64,000 nucleotides of DNA from contig NZ_CAKAKL010000001.1 in assembly GCF_916619195.1 (NCBI RefSeq), positions 1,674,001 to 1,738,000 on the forward strand, in the 5' to 3' direction. The stretch is from Inquilinus sp. Marseille-Q2685 (GTDB taxonomy: Bacteria > Pseudomonadota > Alphaproteobacteria > DSM-16000 > Inquilinaceae). Both the position numbers and the translations under genes were made by a program. The notes below the pieces were generated by a model, which saw nothing but the letters and a program-made list of their open reading frames with translations, was not told the DNA's origin and did not search any database. The number at the start of each line of letters is the position of its first letter. The stretch's first letter is position 1. Below, in pieces: positions 5,355 through 20,696 of this stretch.

Positions 5355-5361
5355 ACGCTCT

Positions 5362-5397
5362 CCCCCTCCCCTTGCGGGAGGGGGGAAGGGGGAGGGG
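5362..5397. repeat. GC-rich palindromic repeat, copy A
   Basis: Core CCCCTCCCCTTGCGGGAGGGG followed by a G-rich arm ending GGGGGAGGGG. The same element recurs inverted at 5475-5513 and again at 24775-24811, each outside recognised genes, so it is a dispersed REP-like unit. It lies just upstream of the chosen urtB start and supplies its purine-rich ribosome site. Confidence 0.75.
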
Positions 5398-5474
5398 TTT
5401 GCCGCAGCCGCCGCAATTGCGGCTCCACGGCATGGCCCCACCACTCCAATCCAGCTTCGCACCAGCGGCACTAG

Positions 5475-5513
5475 CCCCCTCCCCCTGCCCCCTCCCGCAA
5501 GGGGAGGGGGAGG
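5475..5513. repeat. GC-rich palindromic repeat, copy B (inverted)
   Basis: Inverted copy of the 5362-5397 element; its reverse complement contains CTCCCCTTGCGGGAGGGGG and a similar G-rich arm. The head-to-head pair 80 bp apart in the urtA-urtB gap looks like a BIME-type arrangement. In RNA the pair could fold and separate the abundant binding-protein message (urtA) from the permease message, which is a known role of such elements in other bacteria but an inference here. Confidence 0.75.
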
Positions 5514-5572
5514 ATCTCTCTCGGACTCATCGAACGGACCGAACCGGCCATCCCGGCTTCAATGGCACTGGG

Positions 5573-6914: not shown

Positions 6915-6929
6915 GCAAGTTCCGGGCCA
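6915..6929 (-). promoter_or_regulatory. Sigma-54-like promoter of urtA
   Basis: On the minus strand the site reads TGGCCCG-GAAC-TTGC, matching the RpoN consensus TGGCACG-N4-TTGC at 10 of 11 fixed positions with the right GG-to-GC spacing. It lies 50 bp upstream of the urtA ATG. RpoN/NtrC control of urea uptake is well known in other bacteria; here it is inferred from sequence only. Confidence 0.65.
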
Positions 6930-6947
6930 GTGGCGGAACTCCGCCAC
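6930..6947. promoter_or_regulatory. Perfect palindrome between urtA and nasT
   Basis: GTGGCGGA-AC-TCCGCCAC has 8-bp perfect arms around two bases. It abuts the -24 side of the urtA sigma-54-like element. It does not match the usual NtrC site (GCAC..GTGC), so the binding factor is unknown; it could also be a chance hairpin in GC-rich DNA. Confidence 0.4.
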
Positions 6948-7018
6948 GTAACACCTGCCCAAGAGGGCGGCAGATGGCTTCCCTGCCCAATCCCTGCGCA
7001 GCGGCCCGATTCCGGCTG

Positions 7019-7033
7019 TGGTCCGGAACTTGC
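7019..7033 (+). promoter_or_regulatory. Sigma-54-like promoter of nasT
   Basis: TGGTCCG-GAAC-TTGC keeps the invariant GG and GC at RpoN spacing and is the near mirror image of the urtA element (13 of 15 positions). Two mismatches to the -24 consensus make it weaker. It lies 38 bp before the nasT ATG. Confidence 0.5.
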
Positions 7034-12309: not shown

Positions 12310-14775
12310 ATGCCCGAAGGAAGCTGGGGCCCGAAGGAGAGCCTCGTCGTCATCGGCAACGGCATGGCCGGGATGCGGGCGGTGGAGGAGCTGCTGGCCC
12401 GCGCGCCCGGCCGCTACGCCGTCACCGTGTTCGGCGCCGAGCCGCAGGTGAACTACAACCGCATCATGCTGTCACCGGTGCTGGCCGGGGAGAAGCGGTT
12501 CGACGACATCGTCATCAACGACCGCGCCTGGTACGACGCCAACGGCATCGACCTGCGCGCCGGGGTGCGGGTGACGGCGATCGATCGCGAGGCGCGCGAG
12601 GTGGTCGGCGCCGACGGCGGCCGCCGCCGCTACGACCGGCTGCTGCTGGCCACCGGGTCCGACCCGATCGTGATCCCGGTGCCGGGGCGCGACCTGCCCG
12701 GCGTCGTCACCTTCCGCGACATCGCCGATGTCGAGGCGATGCTGGCGGCGGCGCGCGAGGGCCGCACCCGCGCCGTGGTGATCGGCGGCGGCCTGCTGGG
12801 GCTGGAGGCCGCCAACGGCCTGCGCGCCAACGGCATGGAGGTCACCGTCCTGCACCTGATGCCGGTGCTGATGGAGCGTCAGCTCGACCCGGCCGCCGCC
12901 TATCTGCTGCAGCGCGAGCTGGAGCGGCGCGGCCTGACCGTGCTGACCGAGGCCGACACCGCCGCGATCGAGGGCGACGGCAGGGTCGAGGCGGTGCGGC
13001 TGAAGGACGGGAGGGTGATCCCGGCCGACCTGGTGGTGATGGCGGTCGGCATCCGCCCGGCCACGGCGCTGGCCCGCGAGGCCGGCCTGACGGTCGAACG
13101 CGGCGTCGTGGTCGACGACCGGATGATCACCTCCGACCCCTGCATCCTCGCCGTCGGCGAATGCGTCCAGCACCAGGGCCGGACCTACGGGCTGGTGGCG
13201 CCGCTGTACGAGATGGCGCGGATCTGCGCCGACCAGCTGGCCGGCACGGCGGAGAGCGAGTATCGCGGCTCGGTCACCTCGACCAAGCTCAAGGTCACCG
13301 GCATCGACGTGTTCTCGGCCGGCGACTTCCAGGGCGGCGAGGATTGCGAGGACATCGTGTTCCGCGACGCCGCCCGCGGCGTCTACAAGCGGCTGGTGCT
13401 GAAGGACAACCGCATCGCCGGCGCCGTGCTGTACGGCGACACCGCCGACGGCGCCTGGTTCTTCCAGATGCTGCGCGAGGGCCGGGACGTGGCGCCGCTG
13501 CGCGACGGGCTGATCTTCGGCCAGGCGCTGGCGGCCGCCGGGGGTGCGGCGCCGGACCCTAAGCAGGCCGTTGCCGCCCTGCCGCCGGAGGCGGAGATCT
13601 GCGGCTGCAACGGCGTCTGCAAGGGCACCATCGTCCAGGCGATCACCGAGAAGGGGCTGGCCAGCCTGGACGCGGTGCGGGCCCACACCAAGGCCTCGTC
13701 CTCCTGCGGCTCCTGCACCGGGCTGGTCGAGAGCCTGCTGGCGGTGACGCTGGGCGACGGCTACGAGGGCGGGCCGAAGATCAAGCCGGTCTGCGGCTGC
13801 ACCGATTTCGGCCATGACGAGGTGCGGCGGCTGATCCTGGCGCGCGAGCTGCGGTCGATCCCCGCGGTGATGCAGGAGCTGGGCTGGCGCACGCCGCAGG
13901 GCTGCGCCAAATGCCGGCCGGCGCTGAACTACTATCTGATCTGCGCCTGGCCGGGCGAGTACACCGACGACCAGCAGTCCCGCTTCATCAACGAGCGGGC
14001 GCACGCCAACATCCAGAAGGACGGCACCTATTCGGTGGTGCCGCGGATGTGGGGCGGCGTCACCACCGCCCAGGAGCTGCGGGCGATCGCCGACGTGGTC
14101 GACCGCTACCAGATCCCGAGCGTGAAGGTGACGGGCGGCCAGCGCATCGACCTGCTGGGCGTGAAGAAGGAGCAGCTGCCGGATGTCTGGCGCGACCTGA
14201 ACGCCGCCGGCATGGTCTCCGGCCACGCCTACGGCAAGGCGCTGCGGACGGTGAAAACCTGCGTCGGATCGGAATGGTGCCGCTTCGGCACCCAGGATTC
14301 GACGGCCATGGGCATCGCGCTGGAGAAGATGACCTGGGGCACCTGGACGCCGCACAAGGTCAAGATGGCGGTGTCCGGCTGCCCGCGGAACTGCGCCGAG
14401 GCGACGATCAAGGATTTCGGCGTGATCGCGGTCGACAGCGGCTGGGAGCTGCATGTCGGCGGCAATGGCGGCATCAAGCTGCGCGGCACCGACTTCCTGT
14501 GCAAGGTCGAGACCGAGGCCGAGGTGCTGGAATACTGCGGCGCCTTCCTGCAGCTGCACCGCGAGGAATCGCATTATCTGGAGCGCACCGCGCCCTGGAT
14601 CGAGCGGGTCGGCCTGGACCACGTCAAGCGCCGGATCGTCGAGGACGCGGAGTCGCGCAAGCGGCTGCATGCCCGCTTCCTGCATTCGCAGCAATTCGCC
14701 CAACAGGACCCCTGGGCCGAACGCGCCGCCGGCGCCGAGGCGCACGAGTTTCGCCCGATGGCGGCGGTGGAGTGA
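12310..14775 (+). CDS. nirB: Assimilatory nitrite reductase large subunit NirB
   Basis: Cytoplasmic NAD(P)H-dependent nitrite reductase making ammonium from nitrite. The 821-residue protein has an FAD/NAD(P) oxidoreductase module (VVIGNGMAGMR near residue 15; VVIGGGLLGLEAANGLR near 160) and a BFD-like 2Fe-2S domain (CGCNGVC..CGSC near 435-475). A second Cys set follows (CGCTDF, CAKC). The C-terminal ferredoxin-nitrite reductase module has 4Fe-4S/siroheme ligands Cys651, Cys657, Cys691 and Cys695. Full length for the family. nirD follows after 5 bp. Confidence 0.96.
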   Translation: MPEGSWGPKESLVVIGNGMAGMRAVEELLARAPGRYAVTVFGAEPQVNYNRIMLSPVLAGEKRFDDIVINDRAWYDANGIDLRAGVRVTAIDREAREVVGADGGRRRYDRLLLATGSDPIVIPVPGRDLPGVVTFRDIADVEAMLAAAREGRTRAVVIGGGLLGLEAANGLRANGMEVTVLHLMPVLMERQLDPAAAYLLQRELERRGLTVLTEADTAAIEGDGRVEAVRLKDGRVIPADLVVMAVGIRPATALAREAGLTVERGVVVDDRMITSDPCILAVGECVQHQGRTYGLVAPLYEMARICADQLAGTAESEYRGSVTSTKLKVTGIDVFSAGDFQGGEDCEDIVFRDAARGVYKRLVLKDNRIAGAVLYGDTADGAWFFQMLREGRDVAPLRDGLIFGQALAAAGGAAPDPKQAVAALPPEAEICGCNGVCKGTIVQAITEKGLASLDAVRAHTKASSSCGSCTGLVESLLAVTLGDGYEGGPKIKPVCGCTDFGHDEVRRLILARELRSIPAVMQELGWRTPQGCAKCRPALNYYLICAWPGEYTDDQQSRFINERAHANIQKDGTYSVVPRMWGGVTTAQELRAIADVVDRYQIPSVKVTGGQRIDLLGVKKEQLPDVWRDLNAAGMVSGHAYGKALRTVKTCVGSEWCRFGTQDSTAMGIALEKMTWGTWTPHKVKMAVSGCPRNCAEATIKDFGVIAVDSGWELHVGGNGGIKLRGTDFLCKVETEAEVLEYCGAFLQLHREESHYLERTAPWIERVGLDHVKRRIVEDAESRKRLHARFLHSQQFAQQDPWAERAAGAEAHEFRPMAAVE

Positions 14776-14780
14776 CGACG

Positions 14781-15122
14781 ATGACCATGCCGCTGTGGAT
14801 CGATGTCGGCGGGATCGAGGACATCCCGCCGATGGGCGCCCGGGTGGTGAAGAGCCCGGACGGCGACATCGCCCTGTTCCGCACCGCCGACGACCGGGTC
14901 TTCGCGCTGTACGACCGTTGTCCCCACAAGGGCGGGCCGCTGTCGCAGGGCATCGTGCACGGCACCAGCGTCACCTGCCCGCTGCACGCCTGGGTGATCA
15001 GCCTGGAGACCGGATCGGTCGAGGGGCCGGACGAGGGTTGCGTCCACCGCATCGCGGTCGAGCTGCAGGCCGGCCGCATCCGCCTCGGCCTGCCGTCGCC
15101 GCAACTGGTCGCCAATGGCTGA
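14781..15122 (+). CDS. nirD: Nitrite reductase small subunit NirD
   Basis: 113-residue Rieske-fold partner of NirB. YDRCPHKGGPLSQG and CPLHAWVISLETG keep the CPHKGG and CPLH positions of the cluster-binding loops. In many NirD proteins these ligands are partly degenerate; here both Cys-X-His pairs are intact, so a 2Fe-2S cluster is possible. ATG at 14781 is 5 bp after nirB; the stop overlaps the nasA start by 8 bp (ATGGCTGA). Confidence 0.94.
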   Translation: MTMPLWIDVGGIEDIPPMGARVVKSPDGDIALFRTADDRVFALYDRCPHKGGPLSQGIVHGTSVTCPLHAWVISLETGSVEGPDEGCVHRIAVELQAGRIRLGLPSPQLVANG

Positions 15123-17928
15123 GATCCGCACCACCTGCCCCTATTGCGGCGTCGGCTGCGGCGTTGCCGTGTCGGGTGGAGCTGACGCGTTGCCTCTCCC
15201 GCTTGCGGGAGAGGTCGGAGCCGCGTTGGCGGCTCCGGGTGAGGGGAGTCTGTCGAGGCCTGGGCCAGCCCTCACCCGGTCTCGCTCCGCGAGCCCGACC
15301 TCTCCCGCGTCCGGCGGGAGAGGTCACGCGACAGAGCACACGGTCAAAGGCGATCCGATCCACCCGGCGAATTTCGGCCGGCTCTGCTCCAAGGGCGGGG
15401 CGCTGGGCGAGACGCTGGGGCTGGACGGGCGCCTGCTCGACCCGATGATCGGCGGCCGGACGGCAAGCTGGGACGAGGCGCTGGACCGCGTCGCCGCCGG
15501 CTTCACCGAGGCGATCGAACAGCACGGGCCGGAGTCCGTCGCCTTCTACGTCTCCGGCCAGCTGCTGACCGAGGACTACTACGTCGCCAACAAGCTGATG
15601 AAAGGCTTCATCGGCTCCGGCAATATCGACACCAACTCCCGCCTGTGCATGGCGTCCTCGGTCGCCGGCCACCGCCGCGCTTTCGGCGGCGACGTGGTGC
15701 CCGGCTGCTACGAGGATTGGGAGCAGGCGGACCTCGCCATCTATGTCGGCTCCAACGCCGCCTGGTGCCATCCGATCCTGCACAGAAGGCTGCTGGCGGC
15801 GCGCGAGCGCCGCGGCACCAGGATCGTGGTGATCGACCCGCGCCGCACCGCGACCTGCGACGAGGCCGACCTGCACCTCGCCATCGCCCCCGGCACCGAC
15901 GTGCTGCTGTTCAACGGCCTGCTCGCCCATCTGGTGCGCGAGGGCTTGCTGGACCGCGGCTGGATCGCAGCCCATGCTTCGGGCTTCGAGGAGGCGGCCA
16001 TCGCCGCGGCCGAGGACGCGCCGGACATCGCCGCCGTCGCCGCCGGCTGCCGCCTGCCGGAGGAGGCGGTGCGGCGCTTCTACGCCTGGTTCGCCCACAC
16101 CCCCGCAACGCTGACGATCTACTCCCAGGGCGTGAACCAGTCGACCCAGGGCACCGACAAGGTGAACGCCATCATCAACTGTCATCTCGCCACCGGCCGG
16201 ATCGGCCGGCCGGGCATGGGTCCCTTCTCGGTCACCGGCCAGCCCAACGCCATGGGCGGGCGCGAGGTCGGCGGCCTGGCCAACCAGTTGGCCGCGCATA
16301 TGGCCTTCGAGGATGCGGCTTCGCGCGACCGGGTGCGCCGCTTCTGGCGGGCGCCGCGCCTGGCGGAGCGGCCGGGGCTGAAGGCGGTGGAGCTGTTCGA
16401 CGCCGTCGCCGCCGGCCGGATCAAGGCGCTGTGGATCATGGCGACCAACCCGGCGGTCAGCGTGCCGGAGGCGGAGCGGCTGCGCCGCGGCCTCGCTCGC
16501 TGCGATCTGGTCGTGGTCTCCGACGTCACCGCCGAGACCGACACCGCCCGCCTCGCCGATGTGCTGCTGCCCGCCGCCGGATGGGGCGAGAAGGACGGCA
16601 CCGTCACAAACTCCGAGCGCCGGATCTCGCGGCAGCGCGGCTTCCGCCCCCTGCCTGGCCAGGCCCGGCCGGATTGGTGGATCGTCACCCAGGTGGCGCG
16701 TCGCATGGGTTTCGCCAACGCCTTTCCCTATGAGGAGCCGGCCGCGATCTTCCGCGAGCACGCCGCCCTGTCCGCCTTCGAGAACGGCGGCAAGCGGGCC
16801 TTCGACATCGGCGCCCTCGCGGCGCTGGACCGCGAGGCCTATGACGCGCTGCAACCGGTGCAGTGGCCGGTGCCGGAAGGCCGACGGCTAGGCACGGCGC
16901 GGCTGTTCGCCGACGGCCGCTTCCCGACGCCGGACGGCCGTGCCCGCTTCGTCCCGGGGCGGCACCGCCCGCCGGCCCACCGCCCGGACCGCGACCGGCC
17001 GATGCTGCTGAACACCGGCCGGCTGCGCGACCAGTGGCACACCATGACCCGCACCGGCGCGGTGCCGCGCCTGGCCGCCAACAGCCCGGAGCCGGCGGTC
17101 GAGCTGCATCCGGACGACGCCCGCCGCCACGGCCTCGCCGAAGGCGATCTGGTGCGGGTGAGGAGCGGCTGGGGCCGCGCCCTCGCCCGCGCCCGGATCA
17201 CGCCCGACCAGGCGCCCGGCCAGGCCTTCCTGGCGATGCATTGGAACGACCGCTTCACCACCGACTGCGTCGTCGGCAGGCTGGCCAGCCCAGCCGTCGA
17301 CCCGGTCTCCGGCCAGCCGGAGCTGAAGCACATGCCGGTCGCGCTCGAACGGATCGCGCTGGGCTGGGAGGGCTTTCTGGTCTCGCGTCGGCGGATGCGG
17401 CCGACCGGCCTGGTCTACTGGACCCGCCGCGCCGCCGCCGGCTGCCAGATCTACACCCTGGGCGGGCCCGAGCCGCCGGCCGACGGCATCATCCTCGGCC
17501 GGTCGCGGCTGGCGCCGGGCAAGGACCGGCAGGTGATCGAGTTCGCCGATGCCAAGCGCGGCCTGTTTCGCCTGGCGACGCTGGATGCCGGCGGCTTGGC
17601 CGAGTGCCTGTTCGTCGCCCCGCCCGGCCGGCTGCCCGACCCGGAATGGCTGCTGGCCCGCTTCGCCGCCGAGACGCCGCAGCTGGACGACGCCGACCGC
17701 CGTGCCCTGCTGTCCGGCCGCGCCCCGGCCGGCGCCCCAGCCGAGGGCCGCATCGTCTGCGCCTGCCTCGGCGTCGGCCTCGAGCGGATCCTGCGCACCC
17801 TGCGGGAAGGGCAGGGCATCGGGGTCAAGGAGCTCGGCGCTCTGCTCGGCGCCGGGACCAATTGCGGCTCCTGCGTGCCGGAGCTGAAGGAGATCGTCGC
17901 CCATGCCGCCCTTCCTGCAGCAGGCTGA
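15115..17928 (+). CDS. nasA: Assimilatory nitrate reductase catalytic subunit with in-frame repeat insert
   Basis: Molybdopterin enzyme reducing nitrate to nitrite, cytoplasmic, 937 residues. The N-terminal 4Fe-4S site has Cys8, Cys11, Cys15 and Cys91 (GRLCSKG). Molybdopterin-domain stretches follow (YYVANKLMKGFIGSGNIDTN, VTGQPNAMGGREVGGLANQL). A C-terminal BFD-type 2Fe-2S domain has Cys882, Cys884, Cys917 and Cys920. Residues about 25-71 (LPLPLAGEVG...SPASGGRG) are encoded by a palindromic repeat inserted between the third and fourth 4Fe-4S ligands, where relatives have only about 25 residues. The frame is intact, so the enzyme may still work. The product overlaps the next gene by 26 bp. Confidence 0.94.
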   Translation: MAEIRTTCPYCGVGCGVAVSGGADALPLPLAGEVGAALAAPGEGSLSRPGPALTRSRSASPTSPASGGRGHATEHTVKGDPIHPANFGRLCSKGGALGETLGLDGRLLDPMIGGRTASWDEALDRVAAGFTEAIEQHGPESVAFYVSGQLLTEDYYVANKLMKGFIGSGNIDTNSRLCMASSVAGHRRAFGGDVVPGCYEDWEQADLAIYVGSNAAWCHPILHRRLLAARERRGTRIVVIDPRRTATCDEADLHLAIAPGTDVLLFNGLLAHLVREGLLDRGWIAAHASGFEEAAIAAAEDAPDIAAVAAGCRLPEEAVRRFYAWFAHTPATLTIYSQGVNQSTQGTDKVNAIINCHLATGRIGRPGMGPFSVTGQPNAMGGREVGGLANQLAAHMAFEDAASRDRVRRFWRAPRLAERPGLKAVELFDAVAAGRIKALWIMATNPAVSVPEAERLRRGLARCDLVVVSDVTAETDTARLADVLLPAAGWGEKDGTVTNSERRISRQRGFRPLPGQARPDWWIVTQVARRMGFANAFPYEEPAAIFREHAALSAFENGGKRAFDIGALAALDREAYDALQPVQWPVPEGRRLGTARLFADGRFPTPDGRARFVPGRHRPPAHRPDRDRPMLLNTGRLRDQWHTMTRTGAVPRLAANSPEPAVELHPDDARRHGLAEGDLVRVRSGWGRALARARITPDQAPGQAFLAMHWNDRFTTDCVVGRLASPAVDPVSGQPELKHMPVALERIALGWEGFLVSRRRMRPTGLVYWTRRAAAGCQIYTLGGPEPPADGIILGRSRLAPGKDRQVIEFADAKRGLFRLATLDAGGLAECLFVAPPGRLPDPEWLLARFAAETPQLDDADRRALLSGRAPAGAPAEGRIVCACLGVGLERILRTLREGQGIGVKELGALLGAGTNCGSCVPELKEIVAHAALPAAG
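15193..15323. repeat. 131-bp palindromic element inside nasA
   Basis: The two halves are inverted copies. CCTCTCCCGC-TTGC-GGGAGAGG opens the left half at 15193, and CCTCTCCCGC-GTCCG-GCGGGAGAGG closes the right half at 15323. CCGGGTGAGGG (15235-15245) pairs with CCCTCACCCGG (15269-15279). It is read through in frame as about 44 Leu/Pro/Ala/Gly/Ser-rich residues. Its palindrome differs from the repeats at 5.4 and 24.8 kb but has similar style. Confidence 0.9.
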
Positions 17929-18817
17929 CGCCCTGCCCCATCTTCCCCTCTTCCTGACCGTGCGCGGCCGGGCCTGCGTCCTGGTCGGCGGCGGCGATGC
18001 CACGGCGCCGAAATTCGAGCTGCTGCGCCGCGCCGGCGCCGCGGTCCGGCTGGTCGGCGCCGATCCCACCTTCGCCGAGACGGCGGCCGGCGCGGAGGTC
18101 CTGCCGGGGCCGCTGAAGGCCGAGCATCTCGCCGGGGCCTGCCTGGTGATCGACGCCTCGGGCGACGACCGGACCAATGAGCGCAGCGCCGCCCTGGCGC
18201 GGGCGGCCGGCGTGCCGCTGAACGTCGTCGACCGGCCGGCGCTGTGCGATTTCATCCTGCCGGCGATCCTGGACCGGTCGCCGGTGGTGGTCGCGGTCTC
18301 GACCGGCGGCGCAGCTCCGGCCCTGGCCGGGCTGATCCGGCAGGAGCTGGAGGCGCTGATCCCGCCCGGTCTCGGCCGGCTGGCTGCCCTGTCCGGCACG
18401 CTGCGCGACGAGATCCGCCGCCGCATCGCCGACCCGGCCCGCCGCCTGGCCTTCTGGCGCCGGCTGTACCGCGACGGCGCAACCGATCGGGCCCTGGCGC
18501 TCGATCTGATGGACCAGGTGGCGGCCGCCCGCCCCTCCGTCGGTTCCCTGACCCGGATCGCGGTCGGCCCGGGCGGCGAGCAGGACCTGACGCTGCGCCA
18601 GGTGGCGGCGCTGCGCCGGGCCGACCTGCTGCTGGTCGAGGACGGCGTCGACCCGGCGGTGCTGGACCATGCCCGGCGCGACGCGCCGCGCCGCGGCCCG
18701 GTGCGGACGCCGGCCGAGGCCGCCGCCTTGCGCGACGACCTGGGCCGAGGCCTGCAGGTGGTGCAGCTGGTCGCCGCTTCCGTCTTGCAGAGCACGGTAA
18801 TGCTCGCGGCGGAGTAG
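17903..18817 (+). CDS. cysG: Precorrin-2 dehydrogenase/sirohydrochlorin ferrochelatase (CysG N-terminal type)
   Basis: Makes siroheme, the cofactor of NirB, by oxidising precorrin-2 and inserting iron. The 304-residue protein starts with FLTVRGRACVLVGGGDATAPK, the Rossmann motif of CysG/Met8, and has PLNVVDRPALCDFILPAIL and VVAVSTGGAAPALA. After residue about 215 a stretch ([30 protein letters not shown]) resembles the first part of a uroporphyrinogen-III methyltransferase, but the rest of that 240-residue domain is missing. So methylation must come from another gene. It overlaps nasA by 26 bp and ends the nas operon. Confidence 0.88.
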   Translation: MPPFLQQADALPHLPLFLTVRGRACVLVGGGDATAPKFELLRRAGAAVRLVGADPTFAETAAGAEVLPGPLKAEHLAGACLVIDASGDDRTNERSAALARAAGVPLNVVDRPALCDFILPAILDRSPVVVAVSTGGAAPALAGLIRQELEALIPPGLGRLAALSGTLRDEIRRRIADPARRLAFWRRLYRDGATDRALALDLMDQVAAARPSVGSLTRIAVGPGGEQDLTLRQVAALRRADLLLVEDGVDPAVLDHARRDAPRRGPVRTPAEAAALRDDLGRGLQVVQLVAASVLQSTVMLAAE

Positions 18818-20609: not shown

Positions 20610-20632
20610 CCTTCCATCATGGGAAGGTCAAG
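20610..20632 (-). promoter_or_regulatory. CueR-type operator/promoter of copZ
   Basis: On the minus strand TTGACCTTCCCATGATGGAAGG: a dyad CCTTCC..GGAAGG embedded just after a -35 TTGACC, the layout of MerR-family promoters. It is nearly identical to the site before copA, facing the other way. Confidence 0.8.
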
Positions 20633-20672
20633 CACGTTTTTGCCGTCTTCATCGATCCCGTCGAAAGCCCCC

Positions 20673-20696
20673 TTGACCTTCCCATTGTGGGAAGGT
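20673..20696 (+). promoter_or_regulatory. CueR-type operator/promoter of copA
   Basis: TTGACC followed by the dyad ACCTTCCCA-TTG-TGGGAAGGT. MerR-family activators bind such dyads in an over-long spacer. The likely regulator is the CueR gene at 23269. The -10 region near 20698 is poor, as is usual for these promoters. Confidence 0.85.

Follow-up and report, generated by a model that had tools for sequence, protein, structure and literature searches.

The catalytic subunit of the assimilatory nitrate reductase, NasA, of this Inquilinus genome very probably owes an extra loop to a dispersed palindromic repeat that was passively captured in frame and is tolerated as a disordered segment next to a metal-binding site. 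The repeat belongs to one of three palindrome families, here called A, B and C, that are dispersed in the genus; the reading frame of nasA is open through it, sister species carry empty alleles and the same site holds several families. Our analysis covers the window (the whole stretch of 64,000 nucleotides), the genome it comes from (G000) and five other Inquilinus genomes (G001–G005). Empty and filled alleles in such close species provide a comparative case for repeats turning into protein sequence, and several palindromes at one metal-binding loop amount to a natural experiment on how much an Fe–S domain tolerates.

The palindrome in the NasA loop

The nasA frame begins at the stop codon of the preceding gene and continues for 937 codons without interruption (Table 1). 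Three cysteines upstream of the element and one downstream, which in this enzyme family serve as the first three ligands and the fourth ligand of the cluster, are separated by 75 residues (Cys15 to Cys91), and the insert contributes a peptide of about 45 residues rich in Gly, Pro, Ser and Arg. An earlier note, made from the letters alone, had described a 131-bp element encoding about 44 residues where relatives have about 25, figures that fall within a few units of our own (134 bp, residues 26–70 and 23–35 residues, respectively). Its description of a largely self-complementary element, in frame between Cys15 and Cys91, also holds: the outer and the inner arms are each 86% complementary, a third pair of arms (15297–15308 and 15314–15325) is 100% complementary, and the strand at 15180–15336 folds end to end with −116.7 kcal/mol (z = −7.8, with 0 of 200 dinucleotide shuffles folding equally well). 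A gene finder whose codon model was trained on the window places the start of nasA 3′ of the element, and a scan of 14700–18100 for promoters and terminators found none. Two further inverted repeats with arms of 24–32 nt lie elsewhere in the window, at 20614–20690 and 6915–7033.

Table 1 Features of nasA and its palindrome, and a second palindrome copy, in window coordinates.
Feature	Position	Strand	Remarks
nasA, assimilatory nitrate reductase catalytic subunit, 937 aa	15115..17928	+	Open through the element; four Cys invariant in a 32-sequence alignment
Core of family A palindromic repeat, 134 bp, in frame as about residues 26–70	15190..15323	+	
Left outer arm of inverted repeat, reaching beyond the repeated core	15182..15202	+	
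Right outer arm of inverted repeat	15314..15334	+	
Left inner arm	15205..15225	+	
Right inner arm	15288..15308	+	
Codons of Cys8, Cys11 and Cys15, 5′ of the insert	15136..15159	+	From ORF coordinates; invariant in the alignment
Codon of Cys91, 3′ of the insert	15385..15387	+	From the sequence; invariant in the alignment
Copy of family C palindrome; the nasA loop of G002 holds such a palindrome in frame	5357..5515	+	

In Pfam terms, residues 1–19 are the start of the Fe4S4 domain, the molybdopterin domains cover 106–529 and 631–740, and a BFD-like 2Fe–2S domain covers 880–929. An AlphaFold2 model built with 32 sequences has a mean pLDDT of 82.7 and falls below 50 at residues 23–72, between the strands at 16–20 and 76–79; low pLDDT is not unique to the insert, as a second long stretch (377–395) also lies below 50. 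Foldseek matches the model to formate dehydrogenases and periplasmic nitrate reductases. In the solved relative 7qv7, ten residues lie between the stretches that align to positions 3–18 (a weak piece taken alone) and 77 onward, which puts the insert at a hairpin turn. The insert thus looks like a disordered loop in a mostly well-modelled enzyme, and the predicted low confidence across it lends support to the earlier suggestion of a tolerated surface loop.

The closest named relatives by NasA include Inquilinus limosus records; a record titled Mycobacterium sp. KBS0706 encodes a NasA 94% identical to the window protein, and its title looks wrong. The insert is absent from three of the six Inquilinus genomes (G003, G005 and, in a partial gene, G004), so that close homologues do not all share the residues, the point on which the note had proposed to check itself; these alleles have 22–23 residues between the same cysteines (22 in G004) and a short turn, for example GVAAAPDGRVAGD. 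More widely, the third and fourth cysteines are 23–35 residues apart in 78 of 79 readable loops (80 loci), the exception having 79. The remaining two genomes are filled in other ways. G001 has both ends of family A with an 87-bp family B palindrome nested between them and an open frame (spacing 79), and in G002 the site is taken by a family C palindrome (spacing 91), in a frame that is open as far as the contig end, where the partial gene stops. No two species share an intact A copy in nasA, and the loop would be a permissive site, which in other species holds other palindrome families, B inside A or C. The residues flanking the A core also differ from those of the empty alleles, so the event was not a clean insertion; the earlier claim that the element hit the loop without breaking the frame stands as to the frame and fails as to a clean event. 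Comparison by eye with empty alleles of nasA and of alr (below) revealed no target-site duplication, although short ones could escape such inspection.

Dispersal of the palindromes and capture in other genes

As the note had supposed, the element is a dispersed repeat. Family A occupies at least 40 places in the 7.29 Mb of its own genome, hand-merged from 79 match rows on both strands, a lower bound, as scoring covered 40 of the 154 first-look candidates. Copies are about 132–150 bp long and mostly intergenic, and in most of those other than nasA the match begins near 15190 and stops at 15323 or a few bases past it. Each of the three families occurs in every one of the six Inquilinus genomes, where a first look gave between 101 and 540 candidates per genome and 40 of these were scored. 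Family A DNA is nearly absent outside the genus, appearing at E ≤ 1 × 10−8 in 3 genomes, its own included, out of 190 from the class, with at most four candidates scored per genome.

A census of the 40 A places in G000 gave 37 between genes, two within genes (uvrD and nasA) and one partial, touching a gene end; both in-gene copies are in frame, which answers the note's question of how copies divide between genes and intergenic DNA. The raw output of the gene finder was 38 intergenic, one partial and one read through, and nasA, counted among the 38 because its predicted start follows the element, was corrected by hand. Tested on ten known in-gene copies, the gene finder read through nine and called the tenth partial, a control that is not independent, since the same codon model had served to choose these copies. 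In samples of 20 places each from G000, family B was intergenic in all 20 and family C in 19, with one partial, and neither family had a copy that was read through. Assuming that 80–90% of the genome is coding, random insertion would put far more of the 40 A places in or against genes than the three or fewer observed. At the partial place (L013, 1485–1617) the 3′ end of a predicted gene falls within the A copy, so the repeat may supply its last codons.

A peptide search of the genus yielded four further genes with in-frame palindromes and no stops in the aligned stretch; sister-genome loci were a subset of the matches selected for long open frames, so that captured genes may be more numerous than those listed, and frequencies are taken from the G000 set only. 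In uvrD, family A is present in G000, G001, G003 and G004, and a CGTCAT...ATGACG palindrome, known here from uvrD alone, occupies the same linker in G002 and G005. The alanine racemase gene alr carries family A in G003 and G004 and is empty in the other four genomes. A gene for an acetolactate synthase-like ThDP enzyme has A in G001 (across two contigs), G004 and G005 and is empty in G000 and G003; G002 offered no close match, the best being 33%. The E2 acyltransferase gene has A in G001 and G004 and family C in frame in G002, G003 and G005. In G000 the family C palindrome of the E2 linker (contig C7) is out of frame, and this sequence may reflect either a broken gene or an assembly error; unless it is the latter, capture is not always harmless. 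Judged by Pfam and NCBIfam domain boundaries, the alr insert falls within the N-terminal domain, and those of uvrD, the ThDP enzyme and E2 fall between domains. The C-bearing E2 alleles finish, as judged by eye, in a stretch like the right end of A, which together with B inside A in the nasA of G001 suggests that nesting may recur. In-frame capture, which the note called rare, is indeed so by the two A places of 40 that lie in genes, but it is no single oddity, with at least four more genes in the genus and intragenic REPs that PMC3733652 describes in several other bacteria.

Selection, mechanism and competing explanations

In the explanation we favour, a copy of family A, whose mobility we infer, would have inserted at the hairpin turn after the CxxCxxxC motif of NasA, and the filled allele would be what is now present in G000 and, further altered, in G001. 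The length and phase of the element would have kept the frame open for ribosomes to read about 45 residues, and the enzyme would remain in use with its loop, tolerated by the protein. Like captures would have taken place in no fewer than four further enzymes, again at a linker or loop, and in-gene insertions that broke the frame or hit the fold would presumably have been lost, which would leave the rare in-frame survivors.

It is very unlikely that the insert peptide was instead recruited, for docking, stability or regulation, and kept by selection on its amino acids. The frame is held in three species with three different palindromes at the nasA loop, and copies in other genes keep a single length, as recruitment would have it; however, the same nasA site holds differing peptides, three species have none and the AlphaFold model shows no structure in the insert. 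In the other genes, pooled over five pairs, pN/pS is 1.20 inside the element compared with 0.26 in the flanks (p = 0.0004, from rounded counts), which speaks against selection on the peptide there, though nasA is not among them. Highly improbable, too, is the idea that nasA is decaying, its cluster knocked out and the gene heading for loss, or is translated from a start 3′ of the element. The gene finder does call a start there, and the loop does come after the metal-binding motif; yet all 937 codons are intact, the cysteines are invariant and the frame is kept in the three insert-bearing species, in G002 up to the contig end. The dN/dS of nasA is 0.17–0.26 over six pairs of four genomes (the partial genes of G002 and G004 left out), with 0.169 for the pair of insert-bearing alleles and 0.169 for G000–G005, which does not exceed the 0.261 of the empty pair G003–G005. 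The gene is under purifying selection, and relaxed selection is unsupported by dN/dS in these four of the six genomes.

We also reject a coding-adapted palindrome lineage that spreads from gene to gene in frame, separate from the intergenic copies. The 15 best protein-level matches all lie within open frames of at least 251 aa, and a length of 132 bp is common to all 11 in-gene A copies identified outside nasA, compared with 6 of 29 full-length copies outside genes, one of which (L013) touches a gene end. This bias (Fisher p = 5 × 10−6 if the copies, though not independent, are counted singly, and 0.005 when counted as four loci) compares in-gene copies from five genomes with outside-gene copies from G000 only. 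Against such a lineage, in-gene and intergenic copies are intermixed in a tree of 77 distinct copies, where no clade of fewer than 62 contains all the in-gene ones, and an intergenic copy (L014) is 96–98% identical to those in the alr of G003 and the ThDP gene. An assembly or annotation artefact in nasA has a practically negligible probability: palindromes assemble poorly and the genome is in 18 contigs, but the nasA copy is internal to a contig of 1.86 Mb and a separate genome, G001, has A ends at the same place.

Passive capture leaves room for more than one history of the filled alleles. Purifying selection acts on the host genes, counting the element where there is one (dN/dS 0.17–0.42). 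In genes other than nasA the element is less diverged overall than its flanks (4.7% versus 9.3%) and shows few synonymous changes, which gives it the look of a younger sequence than its hosts or of one homogenised relative to them. Over 129 nt the uvrD element is identical in G000 and G001 and the surrounding gene differs by 8.6%, a pattern that suggests homogenisation, exchange or recent insertion. In gene trees, A carriers group together for E2 (G001 and G004, support 1.0) and for the ThDP gene (0.88), as do the two carriers of the CGTCAT palindrome in uvrD (0.95); an rpoB tree places G001 with G002. Carriers of A in alr (G003 and G004) and in nasA (G000 and G001) are ungrouped, which calls for recombination, repeated insertion or loss; the sequences allow cross-species recombination, repeated insertion and precise loss alike. 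We regard as tentative, and on balance doubtful, the broader reading that a few enzyme loops and linkers of Inquilinus are lasting landing pads, where different families insert recurrently, preferentially into resident palindromes, and filled alleles are exchanged between species; were it true, repeat DNA would be a standing source of in-frame linker variation.

Relation to known palindromic elements

Rfam searches of the window gave only matches below the gathering score, the best by E value being whalefall-1 (26.1 bits compared with a gathering score of 37). The same family matched below 37 in 4 of 11 further loci (24–30 bits overall; window 15190–15246, L014, L020, L160 and L163). Half of the family A element resembles whalefall-1, which may itself partly reflect a dispersed palindrome. 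A similar score for mir-3622, by its name an animal family, is taken as an effect of the palindrome.

Rickettsia palindromic elements (RPEs), according to the review PMC10969869, are about 150 bp long, form several families and occur in frame in unrelated genes, where they are predicted to be compatible with protein structure. The Inquilinus palindromes, at about 100–150 bp and in frame in unrelated protein-coding genes, are alike in this, but their host is a 7.3-Mb, GC-rich genome in which most copies are intergenic, and several families at one site together with empty alleles are seen within one genus. The NCBIfam library contains RPE models, and no RPE family was among the matches listed for five proteins at E ≤ 0.001.

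Intragenic REPs, tagged by GTAG or CGTC, are according to Di Nocera and others (PMC3733652) mostly located between genes and in several species also inside ORFs, including that of a UvrD/REP helicase; in two Xanthomonas, recB carries REPs that differ from each other at roughly one position, flexible linkers or loops are proposed for the products, and CCTC is named as a variant CGTC tag. Similar to these are the B element and the palindrome in uvrD of G002 and G005, each starting with CGTCAT, the tag followed by a stem that begins with AT (CGTCATTGCGAG... and CGTCATCCCCGCG..., by eye). Family A differs as a longer compound palindrome that encodes about 44 residues as one unit; most copies end in GTTGCC...GGCAA without CGTC or GTAG (by eye), and CCTC is present but paired within a 10-bp stem that does not begin with AT. 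Small inverted-repeat elements such as Coxiella QMITEs and other MITEs sometimes lie in frame or extend an ORF, as PMC5896051 reports. Family A shares terminal inverted repeats with these and differs in having no target-site duplication recognisable by eye, although short ones could escape.

In the open-licence literature we found no report of family A, of such elements in this genus or of three palindrome families filling one metal-site loop, and nothing on the subject under Inquilinus palindromes or under the genome, repeats or nitrate reductase of Inquilinus limosus. Since in-frame palindromes are established in Rickettsia and intragenic REPs elsewhere, the kind of event is already known, whereas the family, the genus and the turnover of palindromes at a single loop of a metal site appear to be new as far as the literature searched goes.
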